A stretch of 55,912 nt of DNA from an uncultured bacterium (GTDB lineage Bacteria > Bacillota > Clostridia > Lachnospirales > Lachnospiraceae), in contig CANRWP010000019.1 in the NCBI GenBank assembly GCA_947643595.1, positions 1-55,912 of the forward strand, read 5' to 3'. Below are positions 22,968 through 49,409 of the stretch, in pieces (within the stretch, counting starts at the first letter, position 1; every line of letters begins with the position of its first letter). Both the position numbers and the translations under genes were made by a program. The notes under the pieces were generated by a model. It did not search any database. It was given only the letters and a program-made list of their open reading frames with translations, and was not told the origin of the DNA.

Positions 22968-23094
22968 GGCTTGCGAAACATTATGCCAACCTGCGGGAGG
23001 GGCAACACAGCCAAAAAAGGCGACTTGCCACCGCATCGGAGCCTGTTTTGGCAGTGTTGCCCCCTCGTCACTTTGGGATAACCTCTCGCAAGCC
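22968..23094 (-). repeat. Structured repeat, copy 1 (conserved core, variable stem)
   Basis: A long imperfect palindrome. Outer arms GGCTTGCGA/TCGCAAGCC lie at 22968-22976 and 23086-23094. An inner stem of 18 bp with one mismatch pairs 22999-23016 with 23046-23063. The 25-nt core is at 23019-23043. In minus-strand reading the core begins GGCTCCGATGC and ends GGCAAGTCGCC, and it matches copy 2 at 46773-46797 in 24 of 25 positions. The ends (TTGCGA, GTTATC) are also shared, but the inner stem sequence is entirely different. It fills the space between the TIR gene and the lysozyme gene. Confidence 0.75.
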
Positions 23095-23115
23095 ATACAT
23101 ATTAAGGAGAACTTT

Positions 23116-24876
23116 ATGAAAAAATTGAACAAACTGTTTCGACTCACCAAAACGATTCTTGCGCTGTCGCTTGTCGCCGTGCTCTCTCTTTCCTCCACCG
23201 TCGTCGTAAACGCGGCGTCTCTGGGGATCGATGTGTCCAAGTATCAGGGCGGCATCAACTGGGGGGCAGTTCCCTCCTCAGGCGTTACCTACGCTTTCAT
23301 CAAGGCCGGCAGCACCAAGAGCGGCGTGGACCCCGCTTTTGCCGCCAACGTGACTGGCGCCCAGGCGGCTGGCATCCGGACCGGCGTCTATATCTATTCC
23401 TACGCGACCAGCGTGGAGGGCGCCATCAACGAGGCCAATCTGCTCTTACAGTGGATCGAAGGTTACAACATCAACTTCCCCGTGGCTTTCGATATCGAAG
23501 ACAAAGTGCAGAAAGGACTGGACGCAAACACCGTCACCGCAATGTGTAATGCCTTCTGTGATGTGATCGCCGCGGCGGGATACCACCCCATCGTCTACAC
23601 CGGGGCAAACTTTTACCGCGCCCACATGACGCCTGCACTGCGCTACGATATCTGGATCGCGCAGTACGGCAAAGCCTGTGAGATCCCGGGACACGCCATC
23701 TGGCAGTCCACCCATCAGGGTTCCATCGCCGGCATAGCGGGAAACGTAGATATCAACTATATGTACAAGGATTACCACAACATGATCATCCCCGTGGGCT
23801 TCGCCCAGCGCGACGGCTTCACTTACTTTTACAACAATTACCGCATCCAGTTCGGCTGGGTGGATTTCAACGGCGCCCGCTACCACATGGACGCCCAGGG
23901 TCACATGAACACCGACTGGTTCACGGATGAATCCGGCACCTATTACCTCGCTGCGGACGGACACGCCCTCGTGGGACAAAACCAGGTAGGCCCCGACCGC
24001 TACTACTTTGACGAGGCGGGCCGCATCCAGAGCGGCTGGATCACAGTCGCGGACAATCAGTATTTCTACGACGGAAACAACGGCTGCCGCATGGTGACAG
24101 GCTGGTACAACGACGAGACCGGAAGACACTATCTCTTCCCGGCTGACGGTCATCTTGTGAAGGGCAGTATCAACATTGACAACAAAGATTACCTGTTCAG
24201 CGCTGAGGGCAGCATGCTGACCGACTGGCAGACTGTCAATGGCCTGAAATTCTACTACAACCCCGCCGACGGCGCTATGGTCAGAGGATGGCTGGGCGAT
24301 ATCGCGAACCGCTACTACCTCTCCCCTGTGGACGGCCACATGGTGACAGGCTACCAGAATATCGAGAACGCGAACTATTACTTCAATGAGAACGGCGTTA
24401 TGCAGACAGGTATGGTTAAGATCGCGGACGGCACTTTCTATTTTGATCCGAACACGGGCGCACAGCAGACCGGCTTCATCGGCGATATGACAAACCGCTA
24501 TTACTTCAACACGGCGGACGGCCGCATGGTGACAGGAGTCCAGACGATAAACGGCCAGACTTACTGCTTCGATGGAAACGGCAAAATGACCGTAGGCTGG
24601 CAGAATATCGGCGGTGCAAACTTCTATTTCAATCCCGCTGACGGCGCCATGGTAAAAGGCCTGATCCAGGGACCTGACGGCGTATACGGGACCTCCGAGG
24701 CGGACGGACATCAGCTGGTCAACGAGGCGGCAGTCATCGCTGGCGTAGCCAGATGCTTCGGCGGAGACGGAAAGCTGGTGATCAACGCTCCTTACACGAT
24801 CGGCGAAGCAGTCTATATCTGCGATGCCAACGGCGTGGCGGTTCCTGTAACCCCTCCCGCGCCTGCAGCACAGTAA
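23116..24876 (+). CDS. GH25 lysozyme with cell-wall-binding repeats
   Basis: The 586-residue secreted muramidase has a signal peptide (about 1-33, ending VVVNA). A GH25 domain (about 34-225) shows GIDVSKYQGGINWGAV with the N-terminal Asp and VAFDIEDKV with the catalytic acidic pair. About fifteen choline-binding-like repeats follow (WF-Y-AADGHALVG, GW-Y-DGHMVTG type). Some repeats are nearly identical at DNA level (ATGGTGACAGGC recurs near 24092, 24340 and 24524). It would cut peptidoglycan while anchored to wall polymers. AAGGAGAAC precedes the start. A strong terminator follows. It lies beside the van cluster, but I see no direct tie. Confidence 0.93.
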   Translation: MKKLNKLFRLTKTILALSLVAVLSLSSTVVVNAASLGIDVSKYQGGINWGAVPSSGVTYAFIKAGSTKSGVDPAFAANVTGAQAAGIRTGVYIYSYATSVEGAINEANLLLQWIEGYNINFPVAFDIEDKVQKGLDANTVTAMCNAFCDVIAAAGYHPIVYTGANFYRAHMTPALRYDIWIAQYGKACEIPGHAIWQSTHQGSIAGIAGNVDINYMYKDYHNMIIPVGFAQRDGFTYFYNNYRIQFGWVDFNGARYHMDAQGHMNTDWFTDESGTYYLAADGHALVGQNQVGPDRYYFDEAGRIQSGWITVADNQYFYDGNNGCRMVTGWYNDETGRHYLFPADGHLVKGSINIDNKDYLFSAEGSMLTDWQTVNGLKFYYNPADGAMVRGWLGDIANRYYLSPVDGHMVTGYQNIENANYYFNENGVMQTGMVKIADGTFYFDPNTGAQQTGFIGDMTNRYYFNTADGRMVTGVQTINGQTYCFDGNGKMTVGWQNIGGANFYFNPADGAMVKGLIQGPDGVYGTSEADGHQLVNEAAVIAGVARCFGGDGKLVINAPYTIGEAVYICDANGVAVPVTPPAPAAQ

Positions 24877-46561: not shown

Positions 46562-46720
46562 TCTATGATCTCCTGACATCAGGCAGAACTTACTGCTACT
46601 CTGTATTTTACCATACATATATCCGTTTGCGCTATATAAATTTCACATGTTTTCTTTTCCTGACATTCGGGCAAAAAAAGGTTTCCTTTTTCTCCTTTCC
46701 GACTTATAATATATAGATGA

Positions 46721-46850
46721 TTGCGAAGCGTTATCTGCAAAATGACGGAAATGGTCCATCCGGGCAAAAACGGGCTCCGATGCAGTGGCAAGTCGCCCTT
46801 ATTTTGTCCGGATGGACCATTTCCTGTATATTTGGAAGTAACTTTGCGAA
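46721..46850 (+). repeat. Structured repeat, copy 2 (conserved core, variable stem)
   Basis: A hairpin element with a 23-bp inner stem: 46747-46769 pairs with 46802-46824 with one G-T wobble. The 25-nt core lies at 46773-46797, beginning GGCTCCGATGC and ending GGCAAGTCGCC, and is 24/25 identical to copy 1 (23019-23043, opposite strand). The ends TTGCGA...GTTATC and the following TGACG are shared, but the stem sequence (GGAAATGGTCCATCCGG) has no likeness to the stem of copy 1. It lies just before the ligase fusion gene. Confidence 0.78.
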
Positions 46851-46886
46851 TAAAAAATAGAAACAGTAGGAACGGAGCAGTTTGAC

Positions 46887-49409
46887 ATGAACAACATAGA
46901 CAGAATAGAGGCATTCATAGAGAGCGGTAAAAATACATCACGGCGGATCGGATTGGAACTGGAGCATTTCGTCTGCGACCGGGATTACCGCGTCATCTCC
47001 TACCCGGAAATGGCACAGTGTCTGGAAAAAATATGTGGGATCCTGCAGGGGGAACCCGTGCGGGAACACGGAGAGATCTTAGGCATCTCCTGTGATAACT
47101 TCACTTTTTCCCTGGAGCCCGGCTGCCAGCTGGAAATCAGCATTTCCCCCCAGAAAGATCCCGGAACGATCCGGGATATCTATCTGCGTTTCAGGGAGGT
47201 CTGCGATCAGGTTTTTGGAAGCAGAGGATTCTCGCTTCTGGAAAAGGGTGTCTTCCCTTTGATCGAAAACGGGGATATCACCGCGGACGAGCTTCCTCTG
47301 ATCCCTAAGGAGCGTTACGCCCTGATGGATGCTCATTTTTCCTCCACTGGCAGGCTGGGCCGCTGCATGATGCGCGCCAGCGCGGCCACTCAGGTTTCCG
47401 TCGACTTTTCTTCCGAGGAAGACGCCCTGCAGAAAATGCGGGTTCTGATCCGGCTCGCCCCTGTTATCTCTCTCCTGACAGAAAATAAAAACGGGCTGGG
47501 CCGCGCTTTAAAGTGGAAACCCCATCTGATCCGAAATCAGATCTGGCGGGATGTGGACCCTGTGCGCTGCGGCTATTTTGAGCGTTCCATGTCGGAGGAT
47601 TACTCTTTCCGGGCTTATGCGGAATATATCTATGCCGCTCCATGTATTCTTCTGCAGCACGACGAACAGGTGGTGGACATGCAGGGACATTCCGCCGCGG
47701 ATTACTATAAAGAGAGACAGATCGATACGATCGAACATCTACTCTCCATGTTTTTCCCCATGGTGAGGCTGAAAAAATATATCGAATACCGCGTGGCAGA
47801 CAGTATGCCCATCGAAGCGGCCCTCGGATACGCGGCCTTTATCAAGGCGATCGTCTACAACAGGACCCTGCTGGAAAAACTGGACCGGGAACTATCAGAC
47901 GTTCAGAGCGCCGCCGCTGTCCTTGCCGCCGAAAATTCCGTTATTTCCATGGGCTATCAGGCGGACGTATACGGGAAACCGGTGATGGAATGGATGACAC
48001 AACTGCTGGAAGCCGCTCTCAGAGAAGCGCCCGAAAACGAGCAGCTCCTCATCCGCCGGATCATACCTCTTCCTGTGATGAACAACCAGTACCGGAATCT
48101 GGTGGCAGGAAAAGAGGCGCTGCACAGGGAGAGCGCCGCGGCTATTCGGAAGTATCTGCTCTCTTCCACCGCCAAATATCACAACCGTGTCGTGAAAACC
48201 CTGTATCTCCCGAAACTGTTTTCACAGAAAGAAATTCGGGTATTCGACAACGCAGTCTCCGTTCTCTATGGGATCTTCGACAAAGTGATCGCCGAGTATG
48301 AGCGGAGCGAAGCCTACCGGCGTCTGTTCGGCTATCCGAAGGAGCTGGAAGAACTGATCTTGCGCAGACCGAAATACGATTGTAATATTCCGATCTCCAG
48401 GATCGATATCTTTTACCAGGAGGAGACCGGTGATTTCCGGTTCTGCGAATTTAATACGGACGGCACAAGCGCCATGAACGAGGATCGGGAACTGAATACG
48501 GCCTTTGAATCCTCCGAAGCTTACCGTGAATTTCACAGGACCTATTCTCTGCATAAGTTTGAACTGTTTGACACCTGGGTGGAGGAAGCCATCCGACTTT
48601 ATCGTCAATACGCTGGCGACGTTTCCGCGCTCCCCTCCGTCGCCATCGTGGATTTCATGGAGCACGCAACCACGAACGAGTTTTTGATCTTCCGGGACCG
48701 TTTTGAAAAAAGAGGCTGCCATGCGCAGCTAAACGACATCCGGAAGCTTATCTGGGACGGGAAATACTGTTATGCCGAGGACGGGACAAAAATCGACCTG
48801 ATCTACCGCAGGGCCGTCACATCGGACATCCTGGCTCATTACCGGGAAGTCGAAAACTTTTTGAGTGCGGTCAAAGCCGGCGCGGTCTGTCTTCTGGGAG
48901 ATTTCCGGACCCAGATCGTCCACAACAAAATTCTTTTCAAGATCCTGCACAAACCGGAAACCCTTCATCTGCTCACCCGGGAAGAGCAGACCTTTGTCAA
49001 AGCGCATGTCCCTCTGACGATCTCACTGGATGAACTGGACAGGCCGGAATACGAGTGGGTAAAGAAAGACGCCTGCTCCGCAAAGGATAACTGGATCATA
49101 AAGCCTGAGGATTCCTACGGCTCTCAGGGCGTCCACGCGGGCGTGGAGCTGGCCGACCAGGAAAAATGGAACGATCTTCTCCGGGAACTTCGGGGACAGC
49201 ACTATATCCTGCAGCAGTTTAACGATCCCTACCGCCTGCCCAATATCGACCTGTTGTCGGAGGACGCGGAATGGGTGAGCACCGGCAATCTGACAGGACT
49301 CTTTGTGTACAATGGCAGATTCCGCGGAGTCTACTCCCGGATCAGTTTTGATAAAATGATATCCACACAGTACAATGAAATGTCTCTGCCGACCATTGTC
49401 GTAGAATAA
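46887..49409 (+). CDS. Glutamate-cysteine ligase (GCS2) fused to a circularly permuted ATP-grasp
   Basis: The 840-residue protein joins two ligase-like halves. Residues 1 to about 390 resemble GCS2-type glutamate-cysteine ligases: RRIGLELEHFVCD, FSLEPGCQLEISISPQKD, MRASAATQVSVDFSSEEDAL and WRDVDPVRCGYF. Residues about 440-840 resemble circularly permuted ATP-grasp enzymes near glutathionylspermidine synthase: RFCEFNTDGTSAMNEDRE and WIIKPEDSYGSQGV. The known fused glutathione enzyme GshF uses different families (GCS1 plus a Ddl-like ATP-grasp), so this is a distinct build. It probably makes gamma-glutamylcysteine and then adds a second amine, but the product is unknown. Start ATG 46887 follows GGAACGGAG. 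Confidence 0.82.
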   Translation: MNNIDRIEAFIESGKNTSRRIGLELEHFVCDRDYRVISYPEMAQCLEKICGILQGEPVREHGEILGISCDNFTFSLEPGCQLEISISPQKDPGTIRDIYLRFREVCDQVFGSRGFSLLEKGVFPLIENGDITADELPLIPKERYALMDAHFSSTGRLGRCMMRASAATQVSVDFSSEEDALQKMRVLIRLAPVISLLTENKNGLGRALKWKPHLIRNQIWRDVDPVRCGYFERSMSEDYSFRAYAEYIYAAPCILLQHDEQVVDMQGHSAADYYKERQIDTIEHLLSMFFPMVRLKKYIEYRVADSMPIEAALGYAAFIKAIVYNRTLLEKLDRELSDVQSAAAVLAAENSVISMGYQADVYGKPVMEWMTQLLEAALREAPENEQLLIRRIIPLPVMNNQYRNLVAGKEALHRESAAAIRKYLLSSTAKYHNRVVKTLYLPKLFSQKEIRVFDNAVSVLYGIFDKVIAEYERSEAYRRLFGYPKELEELILRRPKYDCNIPISRIDIFYQEETGDFRFCEFNTDGTSAMNEDRELNTAFESSEAYREFHRTYSLHKFELFDTWVEEAIRLYRQYAGDVSALPSVAIVDFMEHATTNEFLIFRDRFEKRGCHAQLNDIRKLIWDGKYCYAEDGTKIDLIYRRAVTSDILAHYREVENFLSAVKAGAVCLLGDFRTQIVHNKILFKILHKPETLHLLTREEQTFVKAHVPLTISLDELDRPEYEWVKKDACSAKDNWIIKPEDSYGSQGVHAGVELADQEKWNDLLRELRGQHYILQQFNDPYRLPNIDLLSEDAEWVSTGNLTGLFVYNGRFRGVYSRISFDKMISTQYNEMSLPTIVVE

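Follow-up and report, generated by a model that had tools for sequence, protein, structure and literature searches.

A probable MITE family in Lachnospiraceae with hairpin arms that stay complementary and placement next to Shine-Dalgarno motifs

Two hairpins in the window

The window, that is, the whole analysed stretch of 55,912 nucleotides from an uncultured Lachnospiraceae bacterium (contig CANRWP010000019.1), carries two long hairpins that an original prediction had described as copies of one repeat, and both were located by sequence at the places it had given. Copy 1 lies between two co-directional ORFs and copy 2 between divergent ORFs, with the following features.

22968..22979, no strand assigned: left arm GGCTTGCGAAAC of the outer inverted repeat of copy 1 (sequence and fold)
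22989..23074, minus strand: inner hairpin of copy 1 (fold; core on the minus strand)
23019..23044, minus strand: conserved core of copy 1 (pattern match, 2 mismatches to the 26-mer)
23086..23094, no strand assigned: right arm TCGCAAGCC of the outer inverted repeat of copy 1 (sequence and fold)
23104..23109, plus strand: AAGGAG, likely Shine-Dalgarno sequence of the gene starting at 23116 (sequence; ORF 23116-24876)
46714..46729, plus strand: left terminal repeat TAGATGATTGCGAAGC of copy 2 (2 differences from TAGGTGATTGCGAAAC of young copies)
46742..46829, plus strand: inner hairpin of copy 2 (by fold: a stem of 23 pairs with an internal loop, a GC clamp of 4 bp and the core at the apex)
46772..46797, plus strand: conserved core of copy 2 (exact pattern match)
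46842..46857, plus strand: predicted right terminal repeat of copy 2, decayed (CGC of the repeat reads GCG)
46874..46877, plus strand: GGAG, likely Shine-Dalgarno sequence of the gene starting at 46887 (sequence; ORF 46887-49409)

The 25-nt core, predicted to differ at one position between the copies, showed 0 and 1 mismatches to its pattern, the end motifs TTGCGA, GTTATC and TGACG were all recovered in both copies, and their opposite orientation was reproduced, with the core on the plus strand in copy 2 and on the minus strand in copy 1. The self-complementarity of both stems was borne out by folding: on either strand the copies form long hairpins (z -6.4 to -9.0), and 0 of 200 shuffles were as stable in each of the four folds. 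A covariance model that had both copies among its own training copies matched copy 2 with E 2.2e-25 and copy 1, at 22991-23071, with E 4.2e-14.

In copy 2, 16 nt lie between the predicted right end, placed by reference to young copies, and the GGAG at 46874..46877, and the start codon at 46887 is 29 nt past this end. A similar Shine-Dalgarno-like motif is also found near the left end, without a start codon. In copy 1 the distance between the AAGGAG and the outer repeat is just 9 nt, and this copy therefore lacks the 16-17 nt spacing described below. At 46842-46851 of the window, CTTTGCGAAT stands in the right repeat of copy 2 instead of the expected GTTTCGCAAT, with the inner CGC apparently inverted, which is the pattern that a template-switch inversion would give. 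The terminal repeats of both window copies are decayed, and target duplications are not reliable there. Both hairpins are probably old copies of a Lachnospiraceae MITE family.

Distribution of the hairpin

With up to 3 mismatches allowed, the core matched 7 loci in the genome of origin, and its reversed control matched none. The same 7 loci gave 13 matches to the covariance model, the remainder being the same loci on the other strand; match counts of this model can in general include one locus on both strands. At the same threshold, the core was present in 2 of 98 genomes including its own, both of one genus. A search of 84,980 species genomes with the exact core pattern returned 84 stretches, 80 of which, listed by title, came from Lachnospiraceae, Acetatifactor, Butyrivibrio or unplaced bacteria. 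After merging of duplicates, 90 copies were retained; six loci, from Bacterium 1XD8-76, repeat copies that were already in the set.

The covariance model, trained on 62 pattern-found copies, matched all 18 genomes that had been picked for holding copies and 4 of 9 genomes of the genus of origin. Of 61 genomes surrounding the Butyrivibrio genome G449, it matched 9, counting G449, which alone gave 94 matches. Core conservation among pattern-found copies is biased, because the pattern itself fixes the core, and covariance-model searches made after the pattern searches turned up other cores. A different apex was seen in two genomes of the genus of origin and still others in further genomes, with GGGGC-TC and TC-GCCCC as recurring parts and a last clamp pair that alternates between C-G and T-A.

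A structured RNA had been among the options of the original prediction, but no known one was recognised: Rfam returned only tRNA for the window, and for six loci with copies it returned 12 matches, all under the gathering score and 11 of them microRNA models. The best of these (E 9.8e-10, 57 of 200 bits) was at a locus with two facing hairpins. A phage or plasmid home of the copies was also considered and set aside: copy 2 had no match in the phage and plasmid collections, and the core pattern had no exact match in viral contigs.

Structure of the element and its insertion sequences

The young copies of this element (A) are mostly 142-143 bp long, with an insertion variant of 165 bp, and have 16-bp terminal repeats, ends of the form TAG..ATTGCGAAAC, and target duplications of 10-12 bp. 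A target duplication score of at least 9, with free end positions, was reached by 19 of 87 copies compared with 4 of 257 shuffled-flank controls. Paired terminal repeats together with a 10-12 bp duplication (at most 1 mismatch) were found in 17 elements, 16 of which have the A core.

Insertion sequences of 1.76-1.80 kb with the same ends were identified at L181, L170 and L194, in genome G491 (two) and in genome G467 (one), and the MITE-rich genome G098 has a full-length transposase at a contig end with one visible element end. By eye, 5 of 7 two-ended insertion-sequence copies (L181, L170, L184, L450 and L456) showed a duplication of 10-14 bp and L194 and L451 showed none; a second transposase lies within L184. 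The four transposases that were aligned have lengths of 485-490 aa, with 64-85% identity to the first. All four matched the Pfam domain DUF772 (PF05598; 43.7 bits against a gathering score of 23.1 for the transposase tested), along with weaker DDE models at E values up to 1. They resemble the IS1182 family in the DUF772 domain and in a distant similarity to NCBIfam model NF033551; however, the one transposase tested scored 72.8 bits, under the curated cut-off of 270, and is not classed as IS1182.

A transposase profile search of 23 MITE-bearing genomes or relatives found full-length genes in three (G098, G491 and G467), fragments or weak matches in four, and nothing in 16, including the assembled genome of origin. 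In the latter (G000), six contig ends (C2, C24, C38, C43, C62 and C90, at L113, L118, L123, L128, L133 and L138) start with TAGGTGATTGCGAAAC, after which all six share one identical sequence, as would be expected of an unassembled repeat, and they probably represent an insertion sequence lost from the assembly. The end of this presumed insertion sequence was found in 2 of 397 genomes of the bacterial family, its own included, and was absent from the plasmids and viral contigs searched.

The A elements are short and non-coding, with terminal inverted repeats, target duplications and an autonomous element with the same ends, in agreement with the mobile miniature element that had been one of the predicted identities; their mobility is predicted from these sequence features. 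A transposase of the DUF772/DDE type would mobilise them in trans.

Spacing to Shine-Dalgarno motifs

A Shine-Dalgarno-like motif was found within 60 nt outside 59 of 128 parsed ends (79 elements), starting at 16 nt in 13 ends and at 17 nt in 17, that is, at exactly 16 or 17 nt in 30 of the 59, counts that are inflated by orthologues, copies and orthologues being dependent events. On some side, the motif lay 12-22 nt out in 42 of 79 elements, compared with 11.7% of 5000 random positions. Forty of the 90 copies had the motif at 14-20 nt, and in this motif-filtered set purines made up 87-100% at offsets 16 to 22 and ATG, GTG or TTG occurred at 25-34 in 34 copies. Among 25 terminal repeats found independently of the core, the motif was present in 14, in 10 of these at 15-19 nt.

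The insertion sequences showed the same arrangement, with a motif at 16-19 nt in 5 of 8 copies by motif scan and L451 and L456 added by eye. In the viral set, the spacing was seen in 3 of 35 repeat matches, which are the three true insertion sequences only, and a Shine-Dalgarno motif was absent from all six contig-end repeats visible in the genome of origin. The inward control for the A-core set also gave a motif at 15-19 nt (11 of 12), which is explained by a motif of this kind present within the arm of the element itself in all copies. When the right end of A is read inward, a Shine-Dalgarno-like AGGGA lies about 16 nt inside, matching the distance of the outward motif.

Because the 1.8-kb insertion sequences show this outward spacing as well, it is better read as target choice than as selective survival of hairpins, although survival may contribute. 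Targeted placement is well supported as a pattern; as to its mechanism, the sequences suggest that the transposase might use the Shine-Dalgarno sequence, or a position next to it, to pick the insertion site.

A second hairpin element (B), about 230 bp long with the core CATAAGCAGACCCTTGCT and terminal repeats similar to those of A, lies downstream of A on the same strand at 27 loci (including L030, L033, L041, L062, L068, L092 and L100), mostly 140-155 bp past the A core. By eye, the stems of B also differ between copies yet stay paired. Several loci with A and B have target sequence on both sides of A, and at L030 and L033 it recurs imperfectly past B (both by eye); repeated insertion at a site set by distance from a Shine-Dalgarno motif would give this arrangement. 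A composite of A and B moving as one unit is not favoured (by eye), because the spacer between them differs by locus and in several corresponds to the local flank. Modular variants were seen at L117 and L137 (genome G099) and at L135 (genome G098): in one, A has an extra apex hairpin; in another, a short hairpin takes the place of the inner stem; and one element is about 70 bp long. Moreover, a 90-bp element on a viral contig (L160, 7667-7756) has terminal repeats of a similar type and contains a GTAGGGGACGNCGTCCCCTAC palindrome, which suggests that such a transposase also serves other hairpin families.

Concerted change of the two arms

The inner stems of the two window copies had been regarded as unrelated in sequence, a point that needs revision, as they are diverged versions of one stem with intermediate forms in other copies. 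The accompanying proposal that pairing is kept while the stem sequence changes was demonstrated across copies. In alignment A1, 96.6% of cells pair compared with 84.3% after shuffling, and 172 cells are changed on both sides compared with 35, with 0 of 500 shuffles as high in either case; one-side changes that still pair make up 11 cells. A core present only twice in the genome, or stems decaying at random, had been named as signs against a maintained structure; what was found was 7 copies in the genome of origin and kept pairing.

Short regions were taken for 80 of the 94 matches in G449, from which 75 copies were parsed and 73 used (L334 and L347 being left out). In these copies, 96.3% of 1971 cells are Watson-Crick pairs, and pairing of the variable mid-stem is 0.920 compared with 0.554 when the 3' arms are shuffled, with 58 distinct mid-stems. 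Changes on both sides comprise 75 transitions and 86 transversions in the mid-stem, and 159 and 94, respectively, in the whole stem. Among orthologous copies, in 17 comparisons, 20 of 387 pairs had changed in both arms and were still Watson-Crick (10 transitions and 10 transversions), 3 had changed in both arms without kept pairing, and 21 had changed in one arm. The 20 both-arm changes come from 5 comparisons, and another 5 comparisons are without any change; 5 pairs changed between L071 and L084, and 7 between L447 and L352. L041 was used twice in this count, and L038/L052, misregistered by an indel, was left out, having alone contributed 11 of the 31 both-arm changes before its removal.

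The internal loop of genome G492 was also informative. It was parsed at 23 of 24 loci, giving 19 distinct copies with the forms AAAAAC/GTTTTT (8), AAAAAA/TTTTTT (6), AAAAAC/TTTTTT (4) and AAAAAC/TTATTTT (1). The last is taken as ancestral because it is the common form elsewhere, and full pairing of the loop arose by two opposite routes, in 8 and 6 copies.

One account of such covariation is a structured cis-acting RNA whose transcript fold is kept by selection and compensatory mutation. The strong covariation itself and the recurrence of the clamp and the apex-closing parts across genera are compatible with it, but the Rfam gathering score was not reached, transversions and transitions are about equally frequent both within the mid-stem and in comparisons of orthologues, and the core strand is without an excess of G-U. 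Its non-Watson-Crick cells in the 73 G449 copies are GT 15, AC 31 (p 0.03) and other 26; a second tally gave GT 17 and AC 44, with N-containing rows left out and part of AC coming from non-aligning insertion variants, and over 77 G449 copies, with two poorly paired rows left out, AC was 38 and GT 16. Most of the excess of AC falls in the clamp and foot, whereas the two kinds of mismatch are balanced in the mid-stem (15 and 13). Relative to the core strand, A-C thus outnumbers G-T in G449 by about 2:1, and these cells would be G-U pairs on the other strand, where the internal loop is a tandem GA. This 2:1 bias is unexplained.

Quasipalindrome correction is a process that occurs in bacteria. The half share of transversions, the absence of a plus-strand G-U excess and the two-way closure of the loop argue for arm-to-arm correction at the DNA level rather than selection on an RNA fold, and template switching is the simplest account of the both-arm changes and their most likely cause. 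The arms would be kept complementary by template switching during DNA replication, a mutation in one arm being copied into the other. A mechanism rewriting both arms at once, as originally suggested, is thereby supported, as judged from the orthologous both-arm changes and the loop closure in G492. Arms copied from the target, another suggestion made at the outset, were not supported: a 17-nt arm piece of copy 2 is nowhere else in its own genome (at most 2 mismatches), and a 10-mer was shared with a copy's own flanks in 2 of 79 Butyrivibrio copies, compared with a mean of 2.0 for the flanks of other copies.

In rRNA stems, PMC8794818 describes multi-base compensatory events by template switching, with transitions making up 61.0% of instantaneous changes and G-U pairs affected in 78.5% of two-step changes. 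The events described there are like the present ones in that multi-base compensatory changes make the arms complementary in one event and the loop is retained, whereas the hairpin studied here is dispersed and mobile, with dozens of natural replicates within a single genome.

Not every part of the element changes in this way. The A tract and the T tract flanking the clamp are nearly invariant, and one T-C mismatch is constant in 31 of 65 distinct arm pairs. The constancy of the core, the A/T tract and the T-C mismatch goes beyond simple correction and is not explained by it; some further constraint may keep the core, tracts and clamp.

Placement and possible role in Butyrivibrio and Acetatifactor

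Conservation in G449 covers the hairpin and about 10 nt past its foot. Among 75 copies, terminal repeats (at most 1 mismatch) were found in 5 left and 2 right flanks, compared with 2 and 1 for the reversed motif, and target duplications showed no excess over controls. Such a pattern would agree with a DNA hairpin mobilised via its own folded form, the stem being the substrate, as in REP or attC systems. The REPIN/RAYT system combines a GTAG foot with a Y1 transposase, and integron attC sites combine R' and R'' boxes with the integron integrase; unlike in attC, the apex and not the ends is the most conserved part here. Young copies elsewhere, however, have clear terminal repeats and duplications of 10-12 bp at a different boundary, and mobility through the folded form is considered very improbable.

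Of 79 G449 copies with long flanks, 51 lie between genes both running with the core strand and 15 between genes both running against it (p 1e-5), the others being in mixed settings (11) or inside ORFs (2), with genes called by a simple ORF script. A core-strand gene end is found within 60 nt on the left in 49 copies, compared with 18 for the mirror position. This orientation bias argues for a role at the transcript level, and in Butyrivibrio the hairpin has probably acquired a function in the transcript between genes after the decay of its transposon ends. The original argument that opposite orientations speak against a riboswitch is fair as far as the window genome goes; the Butyrivibrio copies, by contrast, have a strong orientation bias.

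For the structured cis-acting RNA, the agreement of core and coding strand in 51 of 66 co-directional Butyrivibrio placements is a favourable point. In the Acetatifactor group, however, both orientations occur near genes (14 and 20) without bias, and the mismatch load shows no clear dependence on gene orientation. Mismatches per copy by orientation to genes were 1.18 (49 copies), 1.80 (15) and 0.38 (13), the first two groups differing at p 0.07, so that pairing is not clearly protected by the direction of transcription. Maintenance of the stem as a transcript fold therefore appears quite improbable.

Two further transcript-level readings were weighed. A mobile bidirectional intrinsic terminator of the SPRITE type, with a clamp and T-rich tract on both strands and kept at gene ends, would account for the near-invariant A and T tracts beside the clamp and for a foot 3-26 nt past the stop codon in 33 of 51 co-directional Butyrivibrio copies (simple ORF script). 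On its core strand, copy 1 gave terminator-like hits in a terminator scan, but no hit was obtained within copy 2, many copies (promoters unmapped) stand directly upstream of a start codon, a position at which termination would presumably shut the gene off, and the long outer stem is superfluous for termination, making this reading rather doubtful. A hairpin for intercistronic mRNA processing or stabilisation of the RNase III type, as in Correia elements, would fit a long, near-perfect and sequence-variable stem between a stop codon and the next gene, as well as the orientation of the Butyrivibrio copies with transcription; nevertheless, G-U is not preferred over A-C on the core strand, and we regard it as unlikely. 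The preferred reading, likely on the sequence evidence, is a MITE family with a trans-acting transposase, Shine-Dalgarno-adjacent placement and arms kept paired by template switching.

Relation to known systems and implications

Bacterial MITEs, as presented in the main text of PMC10969869, are likewise short, with terminal repeats, target duplications, strong secondary structure and an autonomous relative elsewhere; the terms Lachnospir and Butyrivibrio are absent from that main text. Compared with the elements covered there, the present family adds a precise Shine-Dalgarno spacing and an internal hairpin with a covarying stem. SPRITE, RUP and BOX of Streptococcus pneumoniae are also small interspersed hairpins in the account of PMC3049150, where SPRITE is terminator-like and near gene ends, with AAAA/TTTT ends and no established duplication, in contrast to the 16-bp ends, 10-12 bp duplications and transposase found here. 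Correia and ERIC are similar as mobile elements transcribed with genes, and RNase III processing is reported for Correia in passages of PMC10969869 and PMC2649163; Shine-Dalgarno spacing and stem covariation do not come up in these passages on Correia and ERIC.

A literature search of titles and abstracts found no description of the element, of its insertion sequence or of a transposon aimed at Shine-Dalgarno sequences; most subscription journals lay outside its coverage, so that this negative is weak evidence of novelty, and this large family of gut bacteria is apparently undescribed. It is best seen as a MITE family of an ordinary class in an unusual variant, the interest of which lies in its targeted placement and its concerted arms. 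A more extended scenario, in which a transposase selects Shine-Dalgarno targets and so seeds leaders and intercistronic gaps throughout the Lachnospiraceae with hairpins, their arms changing in concert and tens of them being kept in Butyrivibrio as transcript-level parts after loss of the ends, is proposed tentatively, as nearly evenly balanced but short of probable.

Covariation alone is not proof of a functional RNA, being strong here but without a sign of plus-strand G-U tolerance. The presence of many copies per genome with different yet paired stems provides natural replicates for measuring the rate of arm correction. If the targeting is true, a transposon using the ribosome-binding site as its address would represent an unusual form of target choice and would offer a ready way of placing regulatory DNA at gene starts.
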